DNA from: Alphaproteobacteria bacterium SS10
GTDB lineage: Bacteria; Pseudomonadota; Alphaproteobacteria; TMED2
Length of the DNA: 64,000 nt
Direction of reading: 5' to 3'
NCBI GenBank assembly: GCA_019192455.1
Contig: JAHCML010000004.1
Location: 139,062 to 203,061, forward strand
Below are positions 4,157-32,869 of the stretch, in pieces. A model generated the notes under the pieces. It searched no databases, was not told the DNA's origin, and was given only the letters and a program-made list of their open reading frames with translations. The position numbers were made by a program, and so were the translations under genes. Position 1 is the first letter of the stretch, and each line of letters begins with the position of its first letter.

Positions 4157-5917
4157 ATGACCGCTGATCCATCGGGCCAGCCCGAAACCGCTGTTGCCGA
4201 TACCGCTACTGAGGTGAGCAATACATCCACGCGAACGTCGCTGGATCGCCCATGGATCGATAACTATCCCCGAGGTGTTGACTGGTCGATGACCATGACG
4301 CCCCAGCCGGTCTACGAAATCGTTGAAAGCACAGCCGCCAAGCTGCCCAATCGCACGGCGATTGATTTCCTGGGCAAGACCTATAGCTATGCCGAGCTTC
4401 AGCAGCTAATCGATGAGGTTGCGGCTGGCCTCCAGGCCAATGGCCTGACCAAGGGCGACCGGGTTGGTCTGCTGCTGCCCAACTCCCCTTACTTTGTTGC
4501 TCTGTTCTACGGTGTTCTTAAGGCCGGTGGCGTGGTGGTGAACATCAACCCGCTCTATGCCGAGCGGGAGATTGAGAACCTGGTCCGTGATAGTGGCCTC
4601 GACATGCTGGCCACGCTCGACCTGGCCGCCCTTTATGACAAGCTGAAGCCCGTGATGGATGAGGGGCTGAAGAAGGTCATCGTCTGCCCGTTCACCAATG
4701 TCCTGCCATTCCCGAAAAACATGCTGTTTAAGCTGCTTAAAGGGAAAGAACTCGCCAGTGTTCCAACCAATGATCAGCACATTCGTTTCGATGAGCTGCG
4801 TAAGCCAGGCGGGCAACCCGATCCAGTTGAGATCAACCCCGTCGAAGATATCGCCGTGCTTCAATATACCGGCGGTACGACCGGGATCCCTAAAGGCGCG
4901 ATGCTGACCCATGCCAATCTGCATGTGAATGCGCAGCAGGCCGTGGCCTGGTTTGATGGTGCCAAGTTCGGTGAAGAGGTGATGATGGGCGTGCTGCCCT
5001 ACTTCCACGTCTTTGCCATGACCGCCTCTATGAATTTGGGCATCGCCTTCGGCTCAACACTAATCCTGCAGCCGCGTTTTGAGCTTAAGCCGCTTCTGAA
5101 GGCCCTGCAGAAGCATAAGGTGACGCTGTTCCCGGCGGTGCCAGCAATCTACACGGCGATCAACAATTCGCCCGAGCTGGCCAATTACGACCTCTCATCA
5201 ATCCGGCTTTGTATCTCTGGTGGCGCGCCGCTGCCGCTTGAGGTCAAGCAGCAGTTTGAGAAGGCGACCGGCTGTACGCTGGAGGAAGGCTACGGCCTGA
5301 CCGAGAGTTCACCCGTTGCCTGCATGAACCCGCTGGACGGCAGCAGTAAGGCTGGCTCAATCGGTCAGCCGGTGCCCGGTACCTCGATTGAGATTATCTC
5401 GCTGGAAGATCGTAAGACGCCAATGCCGCTGGGTGAGGTGGGCGAGGTTTGTATTCGTGGTCCGCAGGTTATGAAGGGCTACTGGCGCCGTGAAGATGCC
5501 ACCGCTGAGACGCTAATCGATGGCCTGCTTCACACCGGTGATGTCGGCTACACGGATGAGCAGGGCTACACCTTCATCGTTGATCGCTTGAAGGACATGA
5601 TCTTGGTAAACGGCTACAACGTTTATCCGCGCAATATCGAGGAGGCGATCTACCTCCACGAGGCGGTTGAAGAATGTGTTGTGGCCGGTGTGAATGATCC
5701 GAAGCGCGGCGAGGTGCCAAAGGTTTGGATCAAGCTGAAGGATGGTAAGGCGCTGGATGATGACGGCCTCAAAACCTTCCTTAAAGACAAGCTCTCACCG
5801 ATTGAGCTGCCCCGTCAGATTGAGTTCCGTGACCAGCCACTGCCAAAGACCCTGATCGGTAAGTTGTCCCGTAAGGACCTGCTCGCCGAACATGAGAAAG
5901 AGCAGGCTGGCGGATAA
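4157..5917 (+). CDS. fadD: Long-chain fatty-acid--CoA ligase
   Basis: Cytoplasmic or membrane-associated AMP-forming ligase that activates free fatty acids with ATP and CoA for beta-oxidation. 586 residues, normal for FadD. The adenylate-forming signature is clear: the P-loop-like YTGGTTGIPKGAMLTH, the A5-type GYGLTES, the LHTGDVGY stretch, the hinge DRLKDMI and the C-terminal LPKTLIGKLSRK with the catalytic lysine. The ATG at 4157 is preferred over an in-frame ATG at 4136 because the strong AGGGGAGG lies just upstream of 4157 and the first ATG has no such site. It opens the fatty-acid block and is followed by a merR regulator and the fadA-fadN-acyl-CoA dehydrogenase genes, which supply the remaining beta-oxidation steps. 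Confidence 0.93.
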   Translation: MTADPSGQPETAVADTATEVSNTSTRTSLDRPWIDNYPRGVDWSMTMTPQPVYEIVESTAAKLPNRTAIDFLGKTYSYAELQQLIDEVAAGLQANGLTKGDRVGLLLPNSPYFVALFYGVLKAGGVVVNINPLYAEREIENLVRDSGLDMLATLDLAALYDKLKPVMDEGLKKVIVCPFTNVLPFPKNMLFKLLKGKELASVPTNDQHIRFDELRKPGGQPDPVEINPVEDIAVLQYTGGTTGIPKGAMLTHANLHVNAQQAVAWFDGAKFGEEVMMGVLPYFHVFAMTASMNLGIAFGSTLILQPRFELKPLLKALQKHKVTLFPAVPAIYTAINNSPELANYDLSSIRLCISGGAPLPLEVKQQFEKATGCTLEEGYGLTESSPVACMNPLDGSSKAGSIGQPVPGTSIEIISLEDRKTPMPLGEVGEVCIRGPQVMKGYWRREDATAETLIDGLLHTGDVGYTDEQGYTFIVDRLKDMILVNGYNVYPRNIEEAIYLHEAVEECVVAGVNDPKRGEVPKVWIKLKDGKALDDDGLKTFLKDKLSPIELPRQIEFRDQPLPKTLIGKLSRKDLLAEHEKEQAGG

Positions 5918-5964
5918 TCCCTCAGAAACTCGTCTGGGCTACTGGAATTTCATTGCATCAAAAC

Positions 5965-5991
5965 CCATCTTTACGTAAACGTAAGGTATGG
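5965..5991. promoter_or_regulatory. Palindromic operator upstream of merR
   Basis: TTACGTAAACGTAA (5971-5984) is a perfect 14-bp palindrome, with further partial symmetry from CCAT on the left and ATGG on the right. MerR-family regulators bind such dyads in the promoter spacer, and the sequence resembles the LiuR-type sites described for fatty-acid and branched-chain amino-acid degradation genes in proteobacteria (from memory, not searched). It lies about 75 bp upstream of the merR start. Confidence 0.6.
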
Positions 5992-6059
5992 GTGATTTGC
6001 TAGCGCCGAGTTAGTGCGTTTGAGGATCACCCAAACAACAAATCGACAGCCATAGATCG

Positions 6060-6518
6060 ATGAGCATGGGACAGAATGACATGATGCGTGGGTTGGCCGG
6101 TGTAAGCAGCACCGACCGTCAAACATTCTCTATCGGGCAGCTCGCCCAGGAGTTTGAGGTGACCCACCGCACCATCCGCTTTTATGAGGATGAGGGGCTT
6201 TTGACCCCGGCCCGTCGCGGCACCACCCGCATTTACTCCACCACGGATCGCGGCCGTTTGGCGCTTATCCTGCGCGGTAAGCGGCTCGGCTTCTCAATCG
6301 CTGAGATTAAGGAGTTCCTCGATCTCTATGAGGTGGATGAGGATCAGGTTGAGCAGATGAAGTTTGCCTTGCAGCGCGCGCAAGATCGCCTGCTGCTGCT
6401 CGACCAGCAACTTGCAGATTTAAAACAGACCAAAAGTGAACTGCAGCAGATCGAAGCTGCCATCCGTCAGCATTTGGAGAACACCGATGCAGACGAGGGG
6501 AAGTCCGATAGCGGCTAA
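6060..6518 (+). CDS. MerR-family transcriptional regulator (LiuR-like)
   Basis: 152 residues. An N-terminal winged-helix MerR domain (about residues 22-90) contains FSIGQLAQEFEVTHRTIRFYEDEGLL and the wing element RRGTTRIY. A long C-terminal coiled-coil dimerisation helix (about 100-145) follows, with no obvious cysteine metal-binding signature. This architecture fits LiuR-type regulators of acyl-CoA metabolism, and the location between fadD and fadA supports that role. Several ATG codons occur in the first ten codons (6060, 6066, 6081 and beyond) and no strong Shine-Dalgarno sequence selects one, so the start may lie later. It is probably autoregulated through the palindrome at 5971-5984. Confidence 0.87.
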   Translation: MSMGQNDMMRGLAGVSSTDRQTFSIGQLAQEFEVTHRTIRFYEDEGLLTPARRGTTRIYSTTDRGRLALILRGKRLGFSIAEIKEFLDLYEVDEDQVEQMKFALQRAQDRLLLLDQQLADLKQTKSELQQIEAAIRQHLENTDADEGKSDSG

Positions 6519-6536
6519 CCCAATCTGAGAGTTTTG

Positions 6537-6571
6537 ACGGCACCGCTTAGAACCTTAACGCGGTGCCGTTT
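6537..6571 (+). terminator. Rho-independent terminator after merR
   Basis: ACGGCACCGC pairs perfectly with GCGGTGCCGT (10-bp stem, 13-nt loop), followed by a short T-rich tail. It lies 19 bp after the merR stop and separates it from the fadA operon. Confidence 0.7.
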
Positions 6572-6652
6572 GTTCAAGAACACAACGCCCAACACCCAAC
6601 AAAAGGGCCAAACCGGCCCGATAAAAATAAGAACGCTTGAAGGAGCAAGATC

Positions 6653-7801
6653 ATGACCGGCACCCCGGAAACCACCCCAGTTATCGCTGGCTATGTCCGT
6701 ACCCCGTTCCATTTCGCCAAGAAGGGCGAGCTCGCTAAAGTCCGTCCAGATGATCTCGCCGTTGTTGCGGTGAAGGGCCTGGTTGAGAAGACTGGCGTTA
6801 ATGTCGACGATATTGAAGACCTGCTGCTTGGTTGTGCGTTCCCGGAAGGTGAACAGGGCATCAATATTGCCCGCGCTGTCGCCCTTCTGGCCGGCCTGCC
6901 GAAATCTGTTGCTGGCGCCACGTTGAACCGTTGGTGCGCCTCGTCGATGAGCACCATTCATATGGCGGCTGGCGCGGTTGCGACCGGCAGTGGCCAAGCC
7001 TACATCGCCGGTGGTGTGGAGAGCATGACCCGGGTTCCGATGGGTGGCTTTAACACCATGCCGAACCCAGCGATGGATAAGGAAGATTTGGCGGCCTATA
7101 TGTCCATGGGCCTGACCGCTGAGAATGTCGCGAAGAAGTATCAAATCACCCGCGAAGACCAAGAGAAGTTCGCCCTAACCTCCCACCAGAAGGCCGCCAA
7201 GGCTTGGGAAGAGGGTAAGTACTCTGAGGTTGTGCCGGTTCAAACCAACGGCCATGCCGTTGAAAAGGACGGCTGTATCCGCCCTGACACCACCCTAGAC
7301 GCGCTCGCTGGCTTGAAGCCCGCCTTTGATGCTGAGGGTTCGGTGACCGCTGGTACCTCCTCACCATTGACCGATGGTGCGACGGCGACCCTTGTCACCT
7401 CTGAGGCTTATGCCAAGGCGAATGGCCTGACCATCCTAGCCAAGATCAAGGGCATGGCGGTTAGCGGTTGTGAGCCAGCAATTATGGGGATCGGCCCGGT
7501 GCCATCCACCCAGAAGCTGCTTGGGCGTCATGGCCTCAGCGTCAGCGATATCGACCTGTTTGAGCTGAACGAAGCTTTCGCCAGCCAGTCGATTGCGGTG
7601 GCCCGTGACCTCGCCATTCCGGATGAGAAGATCAACATCGATGGCGGTGCCATCGCCCTTGGTCACCCGCTCGGTGCGTCCGGCGCCCGTGTGACCGGTA
7701 AGGCAGCGATGCTGCTGGGCCGTGAGGGTAAGAAGTTTGCCGTTTCCACCCTATGTGTGGGCGGTGGTCAAGGTGTCTCCACCCTGTTGGAAGCAGTCTA
7801 A
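6653..7801 (+). CDS. fadA: Acetyl-CoA C-acyltransferase (thiolase)
   Basis: Catalyses the last beta-oxidation step, cleavage of 3-ketoacyl-CoA to acetyl-CoA and a shortened acyl-CoA. 382 residues, normal for a thiolase. The nucleophilic cysteine is in [16 protein letters not shown], the general-base histidine region is [16 protein letters not shown], and the second catalytic cysteine is in [10 protein letters not shown] near the C-terminus. AAGGAG lies 8 bases before the ATG. The gene is 48 bp upstream of the fadN-like gene, an order matching operons that encode the bacterial FadA-FadN trifunctional-type complex. Confidence 0.93.
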
Positions 7802-14650: not shown

Positions 14651-15511
14651 TTACAGGACTGAGAGCATGGAAGCGACCAGCGGGTGGCGAACAATGTCGC
14701 TCTCGTTCAGCTGAACAACCGCAATGTCAGGCAGGGTCTCAAGCCGTTTAGCGATATCAGCCAGGCCAGACATACCTTCCAACAGGTCAGACTGCTCTGG
14801 GTCGCCGGTGATCACCATGGTTGAGTGCCAACCAAGGCGGGTCATCAGCATCTTTAGCTGTGCGTAGGTACAGTTCTGCGCTTCATCAATCACCACATAG
14901 GCATTGTTGAGGGTGCGGCCTCGCATGAAACCAACAGGCGCAATCTCAATCGTCCCATCCTGAAGCAGCATGCGTAGGCGCTTATTGCCAAGACGATCAG
15001 TCAGGCAATCGAAGAGCGGACGCAGATAAGGGTGCATCTTCTCTTCCAGCGCGCCGGGGAGGAAGCCGATATTCTCACCCGCATCAATCGCTGGGCGGGA
15101 GAGGATAATCCGGTCAATCTCACCATTCTCAAGGGCCTCAACGGCTGATGCGATGGCGAGATAGGTTTTACCGGTACCAGCAGGGCCGAGGGCGAGCGCC
15201 AGATTATGCTCTTTAATGGCATCCATCAGCTCGGCTTGGCCGGCACTACGGGGTTTGACTTTACGAATGTAGCTTTGATCCCGGTCGCGATCTTCGCCGC
15301 CTTTGCCTTTGGCCTTACCCTGGCCGCCGTCACGGTTATTGCCGTAACGATCATCGCCTAATGGGTCCCATCCAGGTTCGCGGTAGGGTTCATCAAAACC
15401 AGGTAGTGCATGGACTGTTGCGCCGTCCGCTTTAGCATGGTTACGAACCGTTTCTCGGGCCGCTTCTCGTGCTGATTGCCGCTGGGACTTAGCGCTATTC
15501 CGTTTAGCCAT
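14651..15511 (-). CDS. phoH: PhoH-family ATPase
   Basis: 286 residues from ATG 15511, where TGGAGG is well placed; a longer frame upstream lacks such a site. The Walker A motif is GPAGTGKT (about 109-116) and the Walker B region is YVVIDEAQN. The N-terminal 85 residues are basic and of low complexity, with a GQGKAKGKGGEDRDRDQ stretch. Bacterial PhoH proteins are cytoplasmic P-loop ATPases related to the superfamily I helicase core, with likely RNA-related roles, and the charged tail here fits nucleic-acid contact (inference). This is the variant without the N-terminal KH or PIN domain. Confidence 0.88.
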   Translation of the reverse strand: MAKRNSAKSQRQSAREAARETVRNHAKADGATVHALPGFDEPYREPGWDPLGDDRYGNNRDGGQGKAKGKGGEDRDRDQSYIRKVKPRSAGQAELMDAIKEHNLALALGPAGTGKTYLAIASAVEALENGEIDRIILSRPAIDAGENIGFLPGALEEKMHPYLRPLFDCLTDRLGNKRLRMLLQDGTIEIAPVGFMRGRTLNNAYVVIDEAQNCTYAQLKMLMTRLGWHSTMVITGDPEQSDLLEGMSGLADIAKRLETLPDIAVVQLNESDIVRHPLVASMLSVL

Positions 15512-16174: not shown

Positions 16175-18496
16175 TTAGCGGGTCAGGGTGATGCTGGTCG
16201 TAAACACCCGTCGAACGCCATCATCGCTTAAGGGCAGCTGGATCGCCTGACCGGATAAGAAATCCTCAGTCTGGTCGCTGAAATTTGCGCTGTTCAGCCA
16301 ACCATCCTGACCACCGACCAACACAAAGTAATTGGCGTCCACATCGCTCAAATCCGAGACATGGCGTGACTGGCTGCCGTAATAGGCGTTGTGCTTACCA
16401 GGGGTCAGTGGGTGGGCTGACTTCCAAATCGTTTCATGGCTACCGGCAACGGGATAGTTGCCCACCACATACTTTCCGCCAATCAGGGGGATGTTGGACA
16501 TGAGGTGGCCAACATTGACCCGGTGCATATCGCCCCAACGCGGGTAACTGGTGAACGCGGTTTCTGCCGCCTCTAAGGATTGAAGCAATGCGGTCTGCAA
16601 GGTCGCGTCATCGACCAGGCCCAGAACTTCAGCGGTCCAGCGGTTACTGTTCCCGCCATTATTGATCAGGCTGTAATCCTGCATCCGGCCTGTGGCCTCA
16701 AACAGGCGCGGCGCCATGGCGGCGAACAGGGCGGCATAGGCGGCGGCCCCCTCACTCTCCACATCATAGCGGCCATCCCAGGCGCGGATCGCCTCAATCA
16801 GTCGTTGATAGCGTGGGGTTAGCTCCAGTCCTTCCAGGCCATCAATGCGGGCGATTAAATCATCCCGGAAGGCCAGGCCGGAGACTGAGAAGGTGTCGAG
16901 CTGCAGGCTCATCAATCGGCTGACATTCCAATCGTTGCGCTCTGCCGCCAAGGCCACTTGCCGCTCAACCCGATCAGGACCAGAGAAGACATAGCCGAGC
17001 GGTATCTCAGACGGGCCGGGCGGCACATTGGCGCTCGCCAGGATTCCGCTAGGTGGGTTGTGGAAGCGGGGCAGCTCATCGCTGGGCGCCAGGTTATCCC
17101 AGGCCTTCAGGGCTTCGGCATCTGTCACGATATAGTCAGCTGGGCGCCCGGGTTTCCGCCGCGGCATGGTGGCGGCCACGACCAGACCAATCTCGCCGGT
17201 GCTGGCCTGACCATTCCGGCCGGCAAACAGCATGTTCTGCGCTGAGACGCCATAGCTGGCAAAGGCATCGGCAAAGCCCTGCCAGGTCTTGGCGCGGGCT
17301 GCGTTTAGGAAGGCGGTGATCTCATCAGTCTGCTCATGACCGACCCAGCGGACGGCCAGCGGCCGGTCCTTATCAAAGCCAAGCAGGGGCGCATCACTAA
17401 TAATGGGGCCTTGCGGGCTGACCCGGATATTGGATTCCGTATCCGGCCACCACCGAACCTTGAGCGGCTTGGTCTCAACCTTAAAGTCAGCCTCCGTATA
17501 GCCGGTGGCGTTCAGGTCTATCAGATCGCTCGACGCACCCCGAAGGTTGGTGCCACCCCAGGCTGCGTCGGGGTTCCGGCCCAGGCCAAAGATCGGTAGG
17601 CCGGTCGGCATCATCCCAACGACGTGGAAGCTGGGCGACTTCAGTCCCGCCAATAACCAAAGGTTGGGAAGGCGCAGTCCCAAATGGGGGTCGCTTGCGA
17701 TCACCGGCGCCCCGGATGCGGTGCGGCTGCCATCGATGACCATGGAGTTACTGCCAATGCGACCGCTGTCAAGCAGGGCCGCGACGAGTAGTTCTTTGGC
17801 CAGTCCGGCGCTCTCACTCGGATCACCAAAACGGCTGCCATCGGCGGCGATGGTGGTTAGGCCGGTATCCTGAATGCGGTCCCAAACCGCGGGCCAATCC
17901 TCGCGCTGGCGTTGCTGCATGAGGCCAACCCAGCCCAGCCAATTGATATCAACACCGGCCAGGCGGCCAATGGTCAGGATATCAGCGCCGGTCCAGGGTT
18001 CGGGCTCATCAATGCCAAACACCTGAAACTCATGGGGGCGCTCAACCATCCGGTCCTGATAGGCATTCACACCGTCAACAAACCGGTCGAGCCATTGCTT
18101 CGTTTCCATGGGAAGGTTGGCGTAGATTTCTGGCGTGGCACGGCCCAGATCGATGGTGCGGATTGCTTTATCAAAATCGATGGCGATCGGGCCTGCCAAC
18201 TCCGCCATCCAGCCCTGGGTTAGGTGTTTTGCCAGCGTCATCTGGCCAAGGCGTAAATGGGCATGAACCATGCCTAGGCCAAAGGCACCATCGGCATCAC
18301 TCTCGGCCTCAACGAATGGGATCTGATGCTCATCCCAGCGAATGGTGATCGGCTTCTCAACCGGCAGTCCCTCGGTCGGGAACATGGCGAGGCGCCGTTC
18401 AGTCGTGGTTGGCGTCGGCAATGGTGTCAGTAGGGAGCACCCACCCAGGCCAATCGCTGCAATTGCTGAGGCGGCAAGCTTACGCATCATGGTCAT
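16175..18496 (-). CDS. Penicillin-acylase-family N-terminal-nucleophile hydrolase (lipoprotein)
   Basis: 773 residues. The N-terminus is a lipoprotein signal (GLGGCS, lipid-modified Cys about 20), which predicts an envelope location. The family is synthesised as a precursor that cleaves itself into alpha and beta chains; the expected cleavage lies in RIGSNSMVIDGSRTASG, with Ser249 after Gly248 as the new N-terminal nucleophile. The conserved PVIASDPHLGLRLPN follows directly. Members cleave amide bonds of beta-lactams, acyl-homoserine lactones or other acyl amides, and the specificity here is unknown. Three alternative start codons lie within the first four residues. A gamma-glutamyltransferase homologue, another Ntn hydrolase, lies immediately upstream on the same strand. 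Confidence 0.88.
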   Translation of the reverse strand: MTMMRKLAASAIAAIGLGGCSLLTPLPTPTTTERRLAMFPTEGLPVEKPITIRWDEHQIPFVEAESDADGAFGLGMVHAHLRLGQMTLAKHLTQGWMAELAGPIAIDFDKAIRTIDLGRATPEIYANLPMETKQWLDRFVDGVNAYQDRMVERPHEFQVFGIDEPEPWTGADILTIGRLAGVDINWLGWVGLMQQRQREDWPAVWDRIQDTGLTTIAADGSRFGDPSESAGLAKELLVAALLDSGRIGSNSMVIDGSRTASGAPVIASDPHLGLRLPNLWLLAGLKSPSFHVVGMMPTGLPIFGLGRNPDAAWGGTNLRGASSDLIDLNATGYTEADFKVETKPLKVRWWPDTESNIRVSPQGPIISDAPLLGFDKDRPLAVRWVGHEQTDEITAFLNAARAKTWQGFADAFASYGVSAQNMLFAGRNGQASTGEIGLVVAATMPRRKPGRPADYIVTDAEALKAWDNLAPSDELPRFHNPPSGILASANVPPGPSEIPLGYVFSGPDRVERQVALAAERNDWNVSRLMSLQLDTFSVSGLAFRDDLIARIDGLEGLELTPRYQRLIEAIRAWDGRYDVESEGAAAYAALFAAMAPRLFEATGRMQDYSLINNGGNSNRWTAEVLGLVDDATLQTALLQSLEAAETAFTSYPRWGDMHRVNVGHLMSNIPLIGGKYVVGNYPVAGSHETIWKSAHPLTPGKHNAYYGSQSRHVSDLSDVDANYFVLVGGQDGWLNSANFSDQTEDFLSGQAIQLPLSDDGVRRVFTTSITLTR

Positions 18497-26676: not shown

Positions 26677-26751
26677 GGGCGCGTAGCTCAGCGGGAGAGC
26701 ACTACGTTGACATCGTAGGGGTCGCTGGTTCAATCCCAGCCGCGCCCACCA
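26677..26751 (+). tRNA. tRNA-Val (anticodon GAC)
   Basis: Complete cloverleaf: acceptor GGGCGCG pairs with CGCGCCC, D-arm AGCTCAGCGGGAGAGC, anticodon stem CTACG/CGTAG with loop TTGACAT (anticodon GAC), T-arm GCTGGTTCAATCCCAGC, discriminator A and encoded CCA. Its 3' half is the left attachment site of the integrated element. Confidence 0.96.
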
Positions 26752-26754
26752 TTT
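26705..26754. repeat. attL, 3' end of tRNA-Val
   Basis: 50-bp direct repeat partner of 32820-32869 (47 of 50 identical), beginning CGTTGACATCG in the anticodon stem and running through CCA into TTT. The intact tRNA lies on the integrase side, as expected when the element supplies the missing 3' end. Confidence 0.9.
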
Positions 26755-26807
26755 ATACTTAATTAAAACAACAACTTGTGGGCCTGCTGAAAGATTGGGC
26801 TGGGTGG

Positions 26808-27848
26808 CTATGCAGTCAATTCCTCGGGCTTGTCCGAGAAATTGCCGAAATTGGCCGTTACTGCTTCTACATCCGCGAGGTAGTTGGGGTCGAAATGAAG
26901 GTAAACGCGCCTCAGTGTTCGGGGGTCTGTCGCCGTCATTGCGCCGGCCTTGTCCATCGGTATCCCTTCCTGGGCCAACCACGAGATGAAGGAATGCTTC
27001 ATCACATGAGGGGTTGCATCTGGTACGCCCGCCTTCACGGCTGCACGCTTGAAGGATTTCTTGATGTCCTTCACTGGTTTTCCCAGATGCTCGATGACAA
27101 ATGTCGTCTCCGCATGCTGTCTCAGTCGAGTAAGCGCGGTTTTGAGGTCCGGTGGAATGGGTACGAGTGCACGGCGTTTGTTGGTTACCGCTTGGGTGGG
27201 GTCGCGAAAGTCGATCCGCCCGCCTACTAGGTCTACTCGATCCCAAGTAAGCTGTAGTATTGCCGATTTTCGAGCGCCGGTTCTCATTGCTATTTTGATG
27301 AAGGCCTTTAGGTGGGGTGCTGAGGCAGCATCGTGGATTGCCTGAGCTTGCTCGATCGAGAGATAGAGGTCTCTTGGTGGTTTTGGTTTTGGTATCTCGA
27401 TCATACCAACATTGAAACTGATCCGACCGTCGTCGTTGGCTCTCTTTAGCGCAGTTTTCAGCTCTCGCAGTTCTTCGATAAGGCTGCCGGACCGATGGGC
27501 GCGGGCCTTTCGATACTCTGCTAAATGCACTCGGTTGAGCTGGTCTGCCGTCAGTGATCCAAGCGCTTCGTGAAGTGGCCGATGGTAAAAAGGTGAGTTC
27601 TGAGCCCTTGCCTTTCCCATGCTCTCTAGATCCGCAAGTCGCTCGTCGAGGAGCTGACTGATTGAAGGGTTGGGTGGTGCTGCTTTCAGAGCTTTGTACT
27701 GGATCAAGCATTGTTCAGCGCCCTCCCGATCCGAGCATTTAGTTGTAAATTCTCGGCTACCATCTCGGATGTAGAAGTTTGGCTTGTTGGGTCGCTTGAT
27801 AAGGCGAGGGGCGAGAGGTTTGCGGCCTCGCTTTGACGGCTCTGACAT
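26808..27848 (-). CDS. Tyrosine-type site-specific recombinase (integrase)
   Basis: 346 residues, preceded by GGAG at 7 bases. The catalytic domain spans about 160-335: Arg193 in MRTGARKSAILQLTWDRVD, Lys224 in TNKRRALVPI, His281 in PHVMKHSFISWL and the nucleophile Tyr316 in LRRVYLHF. The second active-site arginine of the usual HxxR box is Lys284 here, a variation I recall in some relatives. The N-terminal half contains a SAM-like core-binding region. Located 57 bp from the tRNA it uses as its target, it should mediate integration and, with the excisionase-like partner, excision. Its first 145 bp overlap the end of the upstream gene. Confidence 0.9.
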   Translation of the reverse strand: MSEPSKRGRKPLAPRLIKRPNKPNFYIRDGSREFTTKCSDREGAEQCLIQYKALKAAPPNPSISQLLDERLADLESMGKARAQNSPFYHRPLHEALGSLTADQLNRVHLAEYRKARAHRSGSLIEELRELKTALKRANDDGRISFNVGMIEIPKPKPPRDLYLSIEQAQAIHDAASAPHLKAFIKIAMRTGARKSAILQLTWDRVDLVGGRIDFRDPTQAVTNKRRALVPIPPDLKTALTRLRQHAETTFVIEHLGKPVKDIKKSFKRAAVKAGVPDATPHVMKHSFISWLAQEGIPMDKAGAMTATDPRTLRRVYLHFDPNYLADVEAVTANFGNFSDKPEELTA

Positions 27849-28069
27849 TTCTGTTTCTCCACATATTCAAGGTAGCTCTGGACACTCACTAAGCGGACGC
27901 GTCCCAGTCGGATGCCATCAAGCGTCCCGTTATCGAGCATTCGCCGAACGGTTTGAGGATGAACATCCAACAAGCGAGCAACACGCTTAACCGAAAGGAA
28001 TTCCGGCATCCGTCGAGCTTGCGGTGGTGGAGATGTAGCGGTAGTCTCTGTAAGCAAATAACCAGTCAT
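27704..28069 (-). CDS. Excisionase-like helix-turn-helix protein
   Basis: 121 residues; AAAGGAGG is ideally spaced before ATG 28069. The MerR-like HTH_17 domain FLSVKRVARLLDVHPQTVRRMLDNGTLDGIRLG spans about 24-57, as in excisionases and recombination directionality factors. The last 48 codons lie in another frame over the start of the integrase gene (145-bp overlap) and look Ser/Gln-rich without conservation features. Its start overlaps the upstream XRE gene by ATGA. Probably controls excision. Confidence 0.75.
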   Translation of the reverse strand: MTGYLLTETTATSPPPQARRMPEFLSVKRVARLLDVHPQTVRRMLDNGTLDGIRLGRVRLVSVQSYLEYVEKQKCQSRQSEAANLSPLALSSDPTSQTSTSEMVAENLQLNARIGRALNNA

Positions 28070-28830
28070 CTTCTGTCCTCCTTTGGATCAGTTGGTGGAT
28101 TGGAGTTTGTCGAAGAGTCCGTCTTGGTTTCGCCGCCTGCGGGCTCTTCTTTTTTGTGTAGTTTTAGGTGTTCGATCTCCCGGTACTTTCTTGCTATTTG
28201 AGCATCGATCCTTTGTTCAGCCCGGCCTGCTTCAGGGGCCTCTGCCAAATAGTCAAAGAAGTCGGTAGCTTGCTGCGCCTCAGGGCCGGGGATGAACAGG
28301 CTCTCATTCTTCTCAGCTCCGGTCAGCGTCATGAACGCAAGCATTCGTTGATCAAAAGCTTCCTGCCTGTCATGGATTTCTTGGGATTGCTCGACTAGCC
28401 ATTGCTTCAGGTACTTCTCATCATCGTCTAGCTCGTCCGGGTCTTTGGTCAGAATTCGAAGCGCCTCACGTTGTATTTGGTTGTCCTTCAATAATGCTAA
28501 GTACTGAGTTTGCATGAAATGAAATTGATATGAGGGTTCGTAGCTGTAATCGATAAATGCTTGTTCAGCGGCCTCTTGGTGCTCTTCTGGAACGCACTTA
28601 AGGAGTGTCCAAATGGGGTGGAGGTCCAAGAAGAGACAGAGCATTGCGAGGTTCTGAGACGAGGGATACTGCCCATCTTCTTCTAGTCCGGCGCGCTCAT
28701 AGCGGATCAGGGTGTTCTCACTAATTCCAATCTTCTGACACAGCGCAACGCGAGAGAGGCCCGCCTTTTCTCTGGCCTCTCTTAGGGCTTTGCCCAGCGC
28801 TTCACGCGGCTTTGGTTGGTCTGAAGTCAT
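28066..28830 (-). CDS. XRE-family regulator 1 with long C-terminal region
   Basis: 254 residues. The N-terminal HTH_3 domain (about 10-72) includes LREAREKAGLSRVALCQKIGISENTLIRYE. The remaining 180 residues are charged, helical and not recognised, ending in a disordered Lys/Thr/Pro-rich tail. It heads the xis-int segment, overlapping xis by 4 bp, and two symmetric sequences just upstream (28840-28879) are likely its own operator. It is a candidate master regulator of excision and replication. Confidence 0.8.
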   Translation of the reverse strand: MTSDQPKPREALGKALREAREKAGLSRVALCQKIGISENTLIRYERAGLEEDGQYPSSQNLAMLCLFLDLHPIWTLLKCVPEEHQEAAEQAFIDYSYEPSYQFHFMQTQYLALLKDNQIQREALRILTKDPDELDDDEKYLKQWLVEQSQEIHDRQEAFDQRMLAFMTLTGAEKNESLFIPGPEAQQATDFFDYLAEAPEAGRAEQRIDAQIARKYREIEHLKLHKKEEPAGGETKTDSSTNSNPPTDPKEDRR

Positions 28831-28839
28831 GATTTAACA

Positions 28840-28879
28840 TACCCAAAAAATGAAGTGGGTACATCAAAAAATGAGATGT
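28840..28879 (-). promoter_or_regulatory. Twin operator upstream of XRE regulator 1
   Basis: Two inverted repeats share the same core: TACCCA-N10-TGGGTA (28840-28861) and ACATC-N9-GATGT (28861-28879). Both spacers contain CAAAAAATGA or its continuation, giving 10-bp direct repeats at 28844-28853 and 28865-28874, exactly 21 bp (two helical turns) apart, 10-50 bp before the start codon at 28830. Confidence 0.6.
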
Positions 28880-28885
28880 TCGTGT

Positions 28886-28930
28886 GCGGCTGGTGCTTTT
28901 GTGTGGAAAAGTGGCCAAAACACCAGCCGC
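28886..28930. terminator. Inverted repeat after XRE regulator 2
   Basis: GCGGCTGGTG (28886-28895) and CACCAGCCGC (28921-28930) form a perfect 10-bp inverted repeat with a 25-nt loop, 9 bp beyond the stop of the gene at 28939. There is no U-run, so it may end the rep-XRE2 transcript or be a structural element of the replicon. Confidence 0.45.
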
Positions 28931-28938
28931 TCGCTTGT

Positions 28939-29697
28939 CTAGCGTTCATCGAAGATAGGTCCGCCTTCGGTGATCGCGCTCCGCATCCGCATGCGGAGGC
29001 CTGATATCAGGTCCTTACCTTCAAACAATTGGACAAAGGGTTTCCCGCTGAGCTGATCATCCAGTGCTTCAAGCTGCTCGTCGGTCATGGTCTCGAGATC
29101 AACGCCAAAGAGGGCTGTATCGATGATTCTCTTACCCACTGCATCCAGCTGATGCTTTTGATCATCGGTAGCGTTTTCAAACGCTACTGAGGCAAGTTCT
29201 TGCCATTGGCCATCGCTAAGCTTGGCGATGTCTCGTTCAATGGCGAGGTCGATAAGTTCTTCCGGGTCCAAGTATCGAAGGCTGGCCTCGAGATCACCTA
29301 CCATTGGGCCTAGCTTGCGGCGGTTCCCACTAAACTCACCAACTCGCATTTCATCGATTGCGATGAGTAACCCGGCGGCTCTCGTCTCGTAGAAAATCGA
29401 TAGGACAGGGTTTCCGCCGCGCTCGTCTTCATAGTCTGCGTCTTGGTGATCGATATGTTCCGGCGCGTCGTCGGTGCCAAAGGCAATGTGATCTGTTGAG
29501 CATCCTAGGGCTTCGCAGATAGCGACGAGGCGACTAAGGTTTGGTTCTTGAAGGCCTTGTTCGAACTTCTCGATGATGCGGAGCGTAAGATCGGTTTTCT
29601 CAGCTAGATCGTTTCGGCTCAGACCTGCCTGTTCGCGAGCGGCACGAAGCCGTTCGCCAGCGGTCGTTGCTTGATTGAGAGTTGCAGTGTCAGTCAT
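28939..29697 (-). CDS. XRE-family regulator 2
   Basis: 252 residues. The HTH_3 domain (about 14-70) includes LRAAREQAGLSRNDLAEKTDLTLRIIEKFEQGLQEPNLSRL. The C-terminal 180 residues are acidic, rich in Asp and Glu, and not recognised. The start overlaps the rep stop by 4 bp (ATGA), so it is co-translated with Rep and may control its copy number or immunity. A second XRE gene of the same size lies next to it, so the element carries two separate repressor-like proteins. Confidence 0.8.
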   Translation of the reverse strand: MTDTATLNQATTAGERLRAAREQAGLSRNDLAEKTDLTLRIIEKFEQGLQEPNLSRLVAICEALGCSTDHIAFGTDDAPEHIDHQDADYEDERGGNPVLSIFYETRAAGLLIAIDEMRVGEFSGNRRKLGPMVGDLEASLRYLDPEELIDLAIERDIAKLSDGQWQELASVAFENATDDQKHQLDAVGKRIIDTALFGVDLETMTDEQLEALDDQLSGKPFVQLFEGKDLISGLRMRMRSAITEGGPIFDER

Positions 29698-31040
29698 GGA
29701 TTTACCTTTCGATGATTGCTGGTGGTAATACCCATCCCATCTTCTAAGTCATTGAAATTGCGAGGTGGGTAGGGTTCCCGGTAGCTACCGGGACACGTAC
29801 CGGGACACGTACCGGGAGGAATGCCCGGTGACGTCTGTGAAGGCGGGGCGAGGTCGAGGAACGGCACTCGCCGGCCTAATTCGAGTGATTGATGCTCGCG
29901 CTGAATGACATCGAGGCCCTGGGCTCTTAGGAGGGCGATGACACCCTCAACACCATCGGCCTGATCTGCCTCAACCAGCACGTGAGGGATGATCTGCTGT
30001 CGCCTGATATGCTTCCACAGTGCATTGCCAAGCGTGGCGATATGCGTCTCAGGAAGTTCTTTGGAGGCTGCTAACTCTTCGTCGGTGGCCTCTGGGCTGT
30101 TATCGTAGCGATGCCGAATATCGCCGCCCCAGGTGAGCTGTCGTGCGCCCTTGAAGGCGTGAGCATACTCTCGAAATAGAGCCTTATCGCGCTTGCTACC
30201 GTGGCGATGGCAGTCATCAAGGATCTGCCATGGCGTCCTGCCACCGTTGCCAGCGAGCTTTGTATGGGCCTTGGTGAGCTCAAGGCTTGCACCCCATTTG
30301 CCTACATACTCAGCGGCGCCACTGTCTTCGGTCACCCGATCAAAGGTGAACGCATCCGCAGAGCATTGCCCGTAGCCTTTGCGCTCGACACTGCGTGCCC
30401 ATCGATCAAAGAAATAGAAGCCTAGTTGCTCAGCATCATCCTCGGTCGCGTCTGGATGCATGAACACGAGGATATGAAGGTGAGGGTGCCATCCATCGTG
30501 GCCATGGGTGACTTCCATGGCCCGAACATCGCCCAGATAGCCGAATTTGGCTTTGGCCCGCTTCCAGGGGCTGCCTTGCTTCACGAACCGCCATACGTCG
30601 CGGACGACATGGCGAAGCTCCTCACAGGTCTGCATGCGATGATGCGGAATGGTAAGGGTCATCATGTAGACGGCCCCACCAGCCTTCCGGTGGCTTTCTA
30701 GGACGGCATCGATTTCCTCACGGCGACCCTCGGTGATCTTGGCTGCGCAAACCGGGCAATGCCAAACAGAGCCGCATGTCTCGACGCCTGCAAAATGATG
30801 ACCGGTATGGGTGGCATGAAGCGTAACTGTCGTGCCTACGGGCTGCTGCCCGCATTTCTTGACCCGTTCCCCTGGAAGTAACGAAGCAGATGTTCGGCGG
30901 AGCTGGTGCCGCCTGATCTTGGAGAGTCCTCTGTCACCATTATCCCCAGCCTGTGCATGGGATTGTTGCCGGTTACTGGTTACTAGGGCTGGGGGGGAAA
31001 CATTATTTGCGTGTATATCAAGATTTGCAGGGGAGCTCAT
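29694..31040 (-). CDS. Rolling-circle replication initiator (HUH, Rep_1-like)
   Basis: 448 residues. A Cys-rich region CGSVWHCPVCAAKI (about 89-102) is followed by motif I YMMTLTIPH, the HUH motif HPHLHILVF (His185, His187, His189) and the motif III candidate AAEYVGKWG with Tyr245 as the likely nicking residue. These are the hallmarks of the Rep_1 family of rolling-circle plasmid initiators. The C-terminal tail holds two PGTC units encoded by a tandem DNA repeat. GGGGGTG lies upstream of the ATG. It likely replicates the excised circle and might also serve as a relaxase-like nickase (inference). Confidence 0.85.
   Translation of the reverse strand: MSSPANLDIHANNVSPPALVTSNRQQSHAQAGDNGDRGLSKIRRHQLRRTSASLLPGERVKKCGQQPVGTTVTLHATHTGHHFAGVETCGSVWHCPVCAAKITEGRREEIDAVLESHRKAGGAVYMMTLTIPHHRMQTCEELRHVVRDVWRFVKQGSPWKRAKAKFGYLGDVRAMEVTHGHDGWHPHLHILVFMHPDATEDDAEQLGFYFFDRWARSVERKGYGQCSADAFTFDRVTEDSGAAEYVGKWGASLELTKAHTKLAGNGGRTPWQILDDCHRHGSKRDKALFREYAHAFKGARQLTWGGDIRHRYDNSPEATDEELAASKELPETHIATLGNALWKHIRRQQIIPHVLVEADQADGVEGVIALLRAQGLDVIQREHQSLELGRRVPFLDLAPPSQTSPGIPPGTCPGTCPGSYREPYPPRNFNDLEDGMGITTSNHRKVNP
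29777..29817. repeat. 16-bp palindrome plus 12-bp tandem repeats in the rep 3' end
   Basis: CCCGGTAGCTACCGGG (29777-29792) is a perfect palindrome. It runs into ACCGGGACACGT twice (29787-29798, 29799-29810) and a partial third copy (29811-29817). It lies within the Rep coding sequence and encodes the PGTC tetrapeptide units. Confidence 0.7.
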
Positions 31041-31066
31041 GTAGCTGCACCCCCGTTTTTCCGGAA

Positions 31067-31468
31067 ATGAAAGGTAAGGTCTTGGCCAAAATCAAAGAGT
31101 TCGTTTGTGAAATACTCGAAGAGATTTCTGAGGCTGTTCTTGAGTTCAATGATCAGCAAAACGAGCGAGATCAAGGTCGGCGCTCTCACATCCCACTTGC
31201 CTCTCCCGAAGGCATGAGGGGGCTGGATGCTGGCGAAACAAGCCATACAAAGGTTGGGAAATGGCAAAGGCTGGTCTTGCCCGTGCGCTTCGATCTGGCA
31301 CTTGAGATCGGCGAAGATGGCAAAGCGGAGATTGCGGTAGAGGGCAGCTTTATGGGCTTCCTCTCTTCCAGAGGAACGGGCTCTTTGGGACGTTCGTCTG
31401 CGCGGATCAGCCGTGCCAATTTTGAGATACCTTTGCTCCTGCCTACCAACATCAGAGGAAGCGACTAG
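31067..31468 (+). CDS. Opposite-strand cargo protein (trypco2-like, uncertain)
   Basis: 133 residues from ATG 31067; in-frame codons extend upstream to 30953 but overlap rep. It opens with an acidic helix (KIKEFVCEILEEISEAVLEF), has a central polar stretch and ends with VRFDLALEIGEDGKAEIAV, then SSARISRANFEIPLLLP. The pattern of a V.FD beta strand, a glycine-bearing hairpin and a terminal ARIxxxxFxIPLLLP strand recalls the small trypsin-co-occurring domain 2 proteins of bacterial conflict systems. This is from memory and needs a profile search. It is the only plus-strand gene in the element, so it probably has its own promoter. Confidence 0.5.
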   Translation: MKGKVLAKIKEFVCEILEEISEAVLEFNDQQNERDQGRRSHIPLASPEGMRGLDAGETSHTKVGKWQRLVLPVRFDLALEIGEDGKAEIAVEGSFMGFLSSRGTGSLGRSSARISRANFEIPLLLPTNIRGSD

Positions 31469-31487
31469 AGCTTTCCTGCTCACCAGC

Positions 31488-31609
31488 CTCAGGGGGACGA
31501 CTGCCCCCTGAGCCATTGGCAAGGCTCTGGGCGATGCCATCCTGTCAAACCCCTCCCGCACCACTACCGACCTGCGGTCGGTACCGGGTCGGGGTGTTGA
31601 CAGGCTGTC
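31488..31609. repeat. Cluster of palindromes in non-coding gap of the element (origin or terminator candidate)
   Basis: In the 182 bp between two converging genes are CTCAGGGGG/CCCCCTGAG (31488-31512, 9-bp stem), TACCGACC-TGC-GGTCGGTA (31565-31583, 8-bp stem) and GACAG-G-CTGTC (31599-31609). The first could terminate the cargo gene. The concentration of stems suits a replication origin for the HUH Rep, but no known nick site was recognised. Confidence 0.45.
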
Positions 31610-31650
31610 TGCGGTGCTCTCCGGTAGGGCGTGTGCAGGCGATTGGTAGG

Positions 31651-32670
31651 TCATTGGCGAGCCTCCCCATCGGTACCGGGAAGGCTACCGGCCAGCTCCT
31701 TTGCGAGCTTTGCGACCTTTGCTTTTGAGATGTTTAGCCGTTCTGCAATTGATGCATCGGTAAGCCCCTCAGCCTTCAGTCGCTTGATTGACTGGATGCG
31801 TCGCCGCTTGATGTAGCGCTGCACGTGCTCGCGCCGGTGACGCATTTTGAATTCTGCGATTTCGGCAGTGATGCCATGTGGCTCACCTATGGCCTTTAGC
31901 GTTGCATGACGCGTGTCTGCCTTATGTTCGCCACGGCGGAAGGATCGATAGACTTGAATACTGATTGGATCGCGGGCGAGCTCATCTTTGATGCCGCTAG
32001 CCGCAACCGTTCCGCCCGCCCTCGGGGCGGCCGGGGTCTTTTCTTTAGGTTTGGAGGGGAGCCTGTCGGCCTTGGTGGCCTCCGGTGGTGCTCCCTGACC
32101 AACCAGCGGTGCCGGTGGTGAGGTAGGCTGGTGAGCGACACCGCGCGAGGTGCGAAGCATCGCAATAAAGTCTCGATGTTTCGCGAGCACCTTATTGACG
32201 GTGCTGGCCGAGACTGGTGGCTCGAGTTTCTTACCGATCTGTGCGTTGGTGTAGCCCAGAAAATAGAAGCGAATGATCTTTTCATCGCGCTCCCGTATCG
32301 CGGCCTTGCGCTGCTTCTTGCGATAGCTGGTCAGGATGGCCTGAAGGCTGCTGACCGGCGTGCTGAAGTTGCTGGCGAAGGTTGTGATAACTTCAGCCTC
32401 GGTAACCCCGCCGCTACCTGTTAAGCGCTTGATCTCGGCATCGAGTTCGGCAGCCAAGCGATGCCATTCATCAGTACGATCTTGAGCATCAGCATCTTGA
32501 TACTGCTCTAGCCGTTTTCGGCGCTCATCGTTGCGTTTGACCAACTCAACCGCTTCGACGATTGCCTTGACCAAATCCATGCCCTGATCAGCAATGAGTT
32601 CGGCAACCTCGAAGGGTAACTCGAGGGTGACGCTGACCGTCTCTGGATTGATCGAAATTCGCTTATCCAT
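31651..32670 (-). CDS. Unknown DNA-binding-type protein with two HTH-like segments
   Basis: 339 residues from ATG 32670, with GGAGG 6 bases upstream; a longer frame to 32700 lacks a site. Residues about 1-40 look like a compact strand-helix domain (ISINPETVSVTLELPFEVAEL). Two likely helix-turn-helix segments follow: one around IIRFYFLGYTNAQIGKKL and one near the C-terminus, IKRLKAEGLTDASIAERLNI. A Pro/Ala-rich linker (about 190-230) joins them. I do not recognise the family. At the far end of the element and transcribed first toward rep, it might be an accessory replication, partition or regulatory protein. Confidence 0.65.
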   Translation of the reverse strand: MDKRISINPETVSVTLELPFEVAELIADQGMDLVKAIVEAVELVKRNDERRKRLEQYQDADAQDRTDEWHRLAAELDAEIKRLTGSGGVTEAEVITTFASNFSTPVSSLQAILTSYRKKQRKAAIRERDEKIIRFYFLGYTNAQIGKKLEPPVSASTVNKVLAKHRDFIAMLRTSRGVAHQPTSPPAPLVGQGAPPEATKADRLPSKPKEKTPAAPRAGGTVAASGIKDELARDPISIQVYRSFRRGEHKADTRHATLKAIGEPHGITAEIAEFKMRHRREHVQRYIKRRRIQSIKRLKAEGLTDASIAERLNISKAKVAKLAKELAGSLPGTDGEARQ

Positions 32671-32819
32671 GGGCGGCCTCCATCTCGAGAGGCTGGCCAA
32701 TTGAATTTCCCGGACATGTCCGGGTTATTAATGGGTGTAGAGTGTGAAGCGCCCGCAAATGCGGGAATTGGCGGATAGGCTGTACAGGGCCAAGTGGTTG
32801 ATGTTGTTTGTTACCCGCT

Positions 32820-32869
32820 CGTTGACATCGTAGGGGTCACTGGTTCATTCCCAGTCGCGCCCACCATTT
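32820..32869. repeat. attR, displaced 3' end of tRNA-Val
   Basis: Fifty bases matching 26705-26754 with three substitutions, including two in the T-arm region. No 5' half of a tRNA precedes it, so it is a remnant and not a gene. It marks the right edge of the element, 47 bp from the end of the polysaccharide operon. Confidence 0.9.

Follow-up and report, generated by a model that had tools for sequence, protein, structure and literature searches.

How does a mobile element of about 6 kb that carries an integrase and a replication initiator, with neither a capsid nor a relaxase gene, come to lie at a tRNA gene, and by what means might it spread? This question is raised by a segment of the window, the 64,000-nt stretch of DNA that was analysed, in which position 1 is the first letter and to which all coordinates of the element refer (Table 1).

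Table 1. Features of the integrated element and its target gene, in window coordinates.
Feature	Position	Strand	Remarks
tRNA-Val(GAC), target gene	26677..26751	+	intact
near att repeat (int side)	26705..26754	+	T-arm GCTGG-TTCAATC-CCAGC
tyrosine integrase (Int), 346 aa	26808..27848	-	PF00589 7.6e-15; 42% to Int of L018 at the same tRNA
excisionase-like (xis) HTH_17 protein, 121 aa	27704..28069	-	HTH_17 3.3e-8; NCBIfam 'excise' above cut-off
XRE-B, 254 aa	28066..28830	-	repressor exchanged between near-identical relatives
XRE-A, 252 aa	28939..29697	-	full-length family marker
HUH (Rep_1-type) replication initiator, 448 aa	29694..31040	-	PF01446 5.7e-11; phrog_11698 2.4e-84
CCCGG-rich cluster, candidate operator	29776..29830	-	rep 3′ end, before XRE-A
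dso-like motif CTTGATATACACGCAA	31007..31022	-	at rep start
cargo gene on the opposite strand, 133 aa, possibly Trypco2-like	31067..31468	+	homologue in L014, E 1.2e-8
small G/C hairpin	31492..31508	.	beside the conserved hairpin
conserved covarying hairpin GTCAA..TTGAC	31540..31606	-	candidate single-strand origin or packaging signal
first gene, HTH protein, 349 aa	31651..32700	-	ATG start possible at 32670
palindrome CCCGGACATGTCCGGG, candidate operator	32709..32724	.	upstream of first gene
far att repeat	32820..32869	+	T-arm ACTGG-TTCATTC-CCAGT

Borders of the element and origin of the tRNA halves

A sequence-only reading of the window had described an element of about 6.2 kb at a tRNA-Val gene, bounded by 50-bp att repeats with three mismatches. 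These borders are confirmed: the two direct repeats are identical at 47 of 50 bases, and the left copy lies inside the intact tRNA-Val(GAC), of which it forms the 3′ part from the anticodon arm to the 3′ end of the tRNA. The other matches to the repeat stretch in the genome are the CAC and TAC tRNA-Val genes. The integrase gene adjoins the intact tRNA, and repeats of the 3′ part flank the whole, as expected of a tyrosine-integrase element integrated at a tRNA gene; the same arrangement is found in a relative, L018 (Table 2).

The divergence of the right repeat had also been taken as a sign of long residence, a conclusion that is not supported, since two of the three mismatches form a single compensatory pair of the T-stem (49:65; G-C in the near copy, A-U in the far copy) that native tRNA-Val genes of the class also contain. 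In a simulation, three random changes yield such a pair with a probability of 0.004, and the ACTGG/CCAGT stem occurs natively both in the host's own CAC gene and in tRNA-Val genes from other families. Between the two copies in L018, a different T-stem pair (51:63) has changed in a compensatory way, the loop has a permitted change, and the terminator stem has a compensatory one. Because compensatory pairs separate the copies in both elements, it is most likely that the 3′ half of the target tRNA-Val(GAC) was supplied by the element and that the far copy represents the displaced 3′ half of the host tRNA. On integration, the element would donate a complete tRNA 3′ half, and the host half would be displaced to the far end. 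Divergence of the far copy by drift is less likely, since no other form of the tRNA is as common in the class as the full near one, which is identical in genomes of several families. Alternatively, the paired changes may possibly result from selection for dyad symmetry of the integrase core sites. Only A58T, at a position that is almost universal in tRNAs, looks like later decay of the far copy. ARAGORN still recognises the joined empty site as a tRNA, but excision would leave the tRNA-Val(GAC), which is seemingly single-copy in the host genome, with U58. A simple caution follows: differences between att repeats are not necessarily a measure of age, as they can show which of the two tRNA halves arrived with the element.

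Exact partial copies of the tRNA-Val(GAC) 3′ half were also found in three other genomes, on contig 18 of G079 (74008 and 86562), contig 1 of G028 (3770641 and 3819965), and contig 41 of G082 (6489), the distance to the intact gene being 12.5 kb and 49 kb for two of them. Given these copies, tRNA-Val(GAC) is probably a target of other elements too.

Genes and candidate cis sites

Domain matches bear out the proposed tyrosine recombinase, excisionase-like gene, HUH Rep, and two XRE regulators (Table 1). The sequence-only reading had overlooked two genes, the first HTH gene and the gene on the plus strand, together with the origin-like motif at the rep start and the covarying hairpin. All genes of the window element are open, and the Rep is single-copy in the host genome. 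The Rep motifs GWHPHLH (HUH) and YVxKWG (catalytic tyrosine) are invariant across six relatives. The plus-strand cargo gene has a homologue in L014 in the equivalent place and orientation, and this copy matches Trypco2 at 0.0065, below the cut-off. Searched against defence models, the cargo gave only one marginal match, in L173, and its single-sequence fold is too poor for use (pLDDT 47). An open reading frame of 205 aa (31037-31654), antisense to the conserved plus-strand gene and overlapping the hairpin, was rejected as a gene; it is probably spurious, because the gene that it overlaps is matched in a relative by a homologue at the corresponding position and on the corresponding strand.

Domain-family searches of the element proteins detected no capsid, Zot, relaxase, primase, or FtsK-like transfer protein, in agreement with the earlier statement that mobilisation and capsid genes are absent. 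The choice that had been left between an integrated plasmid, a satellite, and an IME is thereby narrowed only to the extent that an IME bearing a relaxase is not supported. A non-canonical IME, which a conjugative element would mobilise through an oriT with no relaxase of the IME's own, would suit the size and the integrase, and oriT-only IMEs are known (PMC5704250), but with relaxase and other transfer genes absent among the element proteins this origin appears improbable.

The dso-like motif at the rep start is one that we take to resemble CTTG|ATA nick sites. It reads CTTGATA[T/G]ACACGCAA in the window, L014, L018, and L019 and stands in the same place in L171; its presence there despite another type of Rep argues for a DNA site and not only for shared protein sequence. 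The motif had no match among viral sequences. The CCCGG cluster before XRE-A belongs to the densest 2-3% of sequence windows in eight of the nine elements of the family, with both Rep types, and XRE-A would be the natural candidate to bind it.

The GTCAA..TTGAC hairpin, with a lower stem of 12 bp, has the first HTH gene on one side and the cargo or rep gene on the other and is found in eight of the nine elements, the covariance model giving no credible match in L171. Its columns were paired by hand after inspection of single folds. Across the eight elements, 89.6% of cells pair and ten cells are changed on both sides; none of 500 shuffles reached the covariation score, slid versions of the pairing were far worse, and the effective sample is about seven because the rows of L014 and L019 are near-duplicates. 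The covariance model gives 54-71 bits on its own members, by construction. Outside the family, the best match (29.1 bits, E 1.7e-4) is to the IMG/VR contig L136, which has a Zot match just below the cut-off. The inovirus contig L144 (Zot and Rep_1) scored 20.8 bits, and the PM2-like prophage L020 scored 16.7 bits, at the end of its rep. In 0.66 Mb of unrelated viral loci, nothing scored above 19 bits. The hairpin may represent a wider single-strand origin or packaging structure.

GTCAA..TTGAC hairpins occur in three viral contigs with Reps of the same superfamily (L136:426-485, L144:4393-4455, and L063:2215-2285), that of L136 resembling the form of the family elements closely and those of L144 and L063 being weaker. 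More than 120 matches of a DNA pattern of the hairpin in viral contigs were rejected as chance level by the covariance model, as were six matches of a stricter pattern, which had no score in it.

A family of relatives with exchanged modules

As a lone query, the Rep found nothing in single-sequence scans of genome and viral contigs, and an alignment was needed; aligned with a relative in genome G379 (L014), it led the search to close kin. An XRE-A profile run against 385 genomes then gave four more elements (L170-L173) at 94-161 bits, all else scoring about 52 bits or less. The family comprises at least nine elements of about 5-9 kb in Alphaproteobacteria, counting the eight relatives found (Table 2), and extends over several bacterial families and five kinds of tRNA (Val, Met, Ala, Pro, and Arg). 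It has no description in the literature searched, which consisted of open-licence papers. The search for relatives at tRNA-Val genes that the sequence-only reading had suggested is answered by L018, in which the genes are arranged as in the window element, again at tRNA-Val(GAC).

Table 2. Relatives of the window element.
Element	Source	Site	Layout	Far end
L018	Rhodospirillales MAG BROCD014	tRNA-Val(GAC)	window gene order	own far repeat
L021	Eilatimonas milleporae DSM 25217 (environmental type strain)	tRNA-Met(CAT)	window gene order, other integrase	far repeat 44/45
L014	G379	between two dif-like sites AATATACATTATGCGCGTT	no integrase	
L019	Thalassobaculum litoreum DSM 18839 (environmental type strain)	between two dif-like sites AATATACATTATGCGCGTT	no integrase	
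L170		tRNA-Ala(GGC)	int beside tRNA as in window	far repeat
L171		tRNA-Pro(CGG)	int beside tRNA as in window	far repeat
L172		tRNA-Arg-type repeats	decayed copy	far repeat
L173		tRNA-Arg(CCG)	int at far end	far repeat

The conserved set is made up of the first HTH gene together with rep, XRE-A, and XRE-B, to which most members add xis and int. By sequence comparison, XRE-A and XRE-B are the common core, accompanied by xis and int in seven of the nine elements, while Rep, cargo, and site vary. The Reps of L170-L173 are unlike that of the window; comparing profiles of the two types gave no significant result (probability 3.8%), and common descent is therefore not claimed for them. Over 355 aa, the Rep of L171 shares 32% identity with a Rep from a Roseivivax plasmid. 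A Roseivivax plasmid of 5.6 kb was considered as a free form and rejected, as it shares only the alternative Rep and has neither XRE-A nor the hairpin. In the search for a free form, neither XRE-A nor XRE-B nor a Rep of the window clade was found on any close plasmid, phage, or IMG/VR contig.

The insertion route is likewise exchangeable, being either Int at several tRNA genes or dif-like sites with no Int, the dif-like sites of L014 and L019 being what we take to be an XerCD core on comparison with E. coli dif. The DNA of L014 and L019 aligns in three blocks (85%, 93.6%, and 89%), with rep-xreA about 94% identical, and exactly two stretches fail to align: XRE-B and the opposite-strand cargo, which encodes a possible Trypco2-like protein in L014 and a membrane protein in L019. 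By analogy, this swap of a repressor between otherwise near-identical elements looks like the immunity groups of phages, and XRE-B would be the protein that sets immunity. A regulator pair with exchange of XRE-B and a slot for cargo is more phage- or satellite-like than would suit a cryptic rolling-circle plasmid that gained an integrase and persists mainly by vertical inheritance with no helper phage, and the distribution over several families and five tRNA kinds calls for a route of transfer.

The locus of L172 contains several tRNA-Arg-type 3′ repeats and a second integrase (5694-7082, 7204-7250, 14950-14996, and 16645-16841), which suggests a tandem array of elements, one of them a decayed family member.

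Replication initiators, possible helpers, and known systems

In a midpoint-rooted tree of 65 Reps, which gives no direction of exchange, the window Rep falls in a clade (support 100/98) with the Reps of L018, L014, L019, and L021 and those of the prophages L020 and L015, each of which has a PM2-type P2 capsid protein. Inovirus and small-plasmid Reps are placed outside this clade. The first prophage (L020:7874-18740, Kiloniellaceae MAG) lies between dif-like sites and has an HTH gene related to that of L173; the second is L015:5600-17000 (G105 contig 18), and the Reps of both are sisters of the window Rep. A search of the host genome found neither P2 nor Zot, which indicates no resident helper of those kinds in the assembly, although the P2 search also failed to detect the divergent P2 known from G105.

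Beyond the borders, gene order, modular family, and conserved cis sites, which are observed directly, we moderately favor the interpretation that the window element is an integrated, lysogenic rolling-circle replicon of a capsid- and relaxase-free alphaproteobacterial family that spreads with a helper, for which a phage is likelier than a conjugative element. In this mechanism, the XRE proteins would keep the element silent until derepression allowed Xis and Int to excise it. Rep would then nick CTTG|ATA at the rep start for rolling-circle copying, and the GTCAA..TTGAC hairpin would start the complementary strand or mark the DNA for packaging. Spread would depend on a helper, with the element possibly acting as a phage satellite. 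Points counted against this interpretation are that no free form was matched, that no P2 or Zot is resident, that L171 has no hairpin, and that the far copy carries A58T.

The integrated plasmid outlined above is possible with a lower probability. Both Rep types are related to Reps on small non-mobilizable plasmids, capsid and packaging genes are absent, and there is no resident helper, but the Rep groups with PM2-like prophages and not with plasmids. The helper-phage reading is placed a little above such a plain integrated plasmid. A dead remnant of a PM2-like or filamentous prophage, left after loss of the capsid genes, could account for A58T and for the interleaving of capsid-free elements with PM2-like prophages in the Rep tree, but it is quite unlikely: the genes of the window element are open, and nine elements at several sites repeat one capsid-free layout, whereas a remnant would not recur in one form.

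A bolder version of helper-mediated spread, which we put forward only tentatively, is an undescribed family of minimal satellites in which the XRE-A/XRE-B pair is combined with varying HUH initiators, cargo, and routes (Int at tRNAs or host XerCD at dif). Phages of the ssDNA or PM2-like kind would use the shared hairpin to package such satellites as rolling-circle DNA, and integration of the satellites would swap the 3′ half of an apparently single-copy tRNA for that of another lineage.

Comparison with known systems places the window element as an integrative rolling-circle replicon, while the new aspects lie in the family itself, in the regulators and hairpin that its members share, and in how Rep, cargo, and route are swapped. 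Like the Rep_1-type rolling-circle plasmids (for example Cupriavidus taiwanensis pTJ86-1 and cryptic plasmids of Acinetobacter and Pseudomonas), it has a Rep of the HUH superfamily (30-38% identity) and no capsid; unlike them, it is integrated, possesses Int, Xis, and two XRE proteins, and has a Rep of another clade. RS1 is a filamentous-phage satellite with a repressor. RS1 and pDolos are named as inovirus satellites (PMC11389934). Inoviruses and their satellites share the Rep superfamily and, in contig L136, a similar hairpin, whereas the window element has its own Int and Xis but neither Zot nor coat genes, and its helper is only hypothesised. With PM2-like (corticovirus, Jorvik-like) prophages it shares the Rep clade, and L020 has dif-like flanks as do L014 and L019; however, it lacks the P2 capsid, packaging ATPase, and lysis gene. 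Dif-like att sites have been described for PM2-type phages of Alphaproteobacteria (PMC10589892). PICMI, minimal Vibrio phage satellites with int, alpA, and a primase (PMC10803314), are similar in their size of about 6 kb and in combining int, an AlpA/HTH_17-type gene, a replication gene, and cargo, but the window element has an HUH Rep in place of the primase, the family uses tRNA or dif in place of fis, and the hosts differ. AICEs (actinomycete integrative and conjugative elements) also have a tyrosine integrase at a tRNA gene and their own Rep, yet the window element has no FtsK-like transfer gene and belongs to a different phylum. In contrast to IMEX (XerCD/dif), it has a tRNA site and its own Int, while its sisters L014 and L019 resemble IMEX in having dif-like sites and no Int.

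Prophage and island finders easily overlook integrated elements of very small size. Constant regulators combined with exchange of Rep, route, and cargo within one family would show modular assembly of mobile elements, and such a family may represent the missing satellites of the common, little-studied PM2-like and filamentous phages.

Reps of the same superfamily were also found in two Chitinimonas loci (L024:8584-17265 and L025:9036-16596), between tRNA-Ser(GGA) and a partial copy of its 3′ end; these are probably other Rep-bearing integrated elements.
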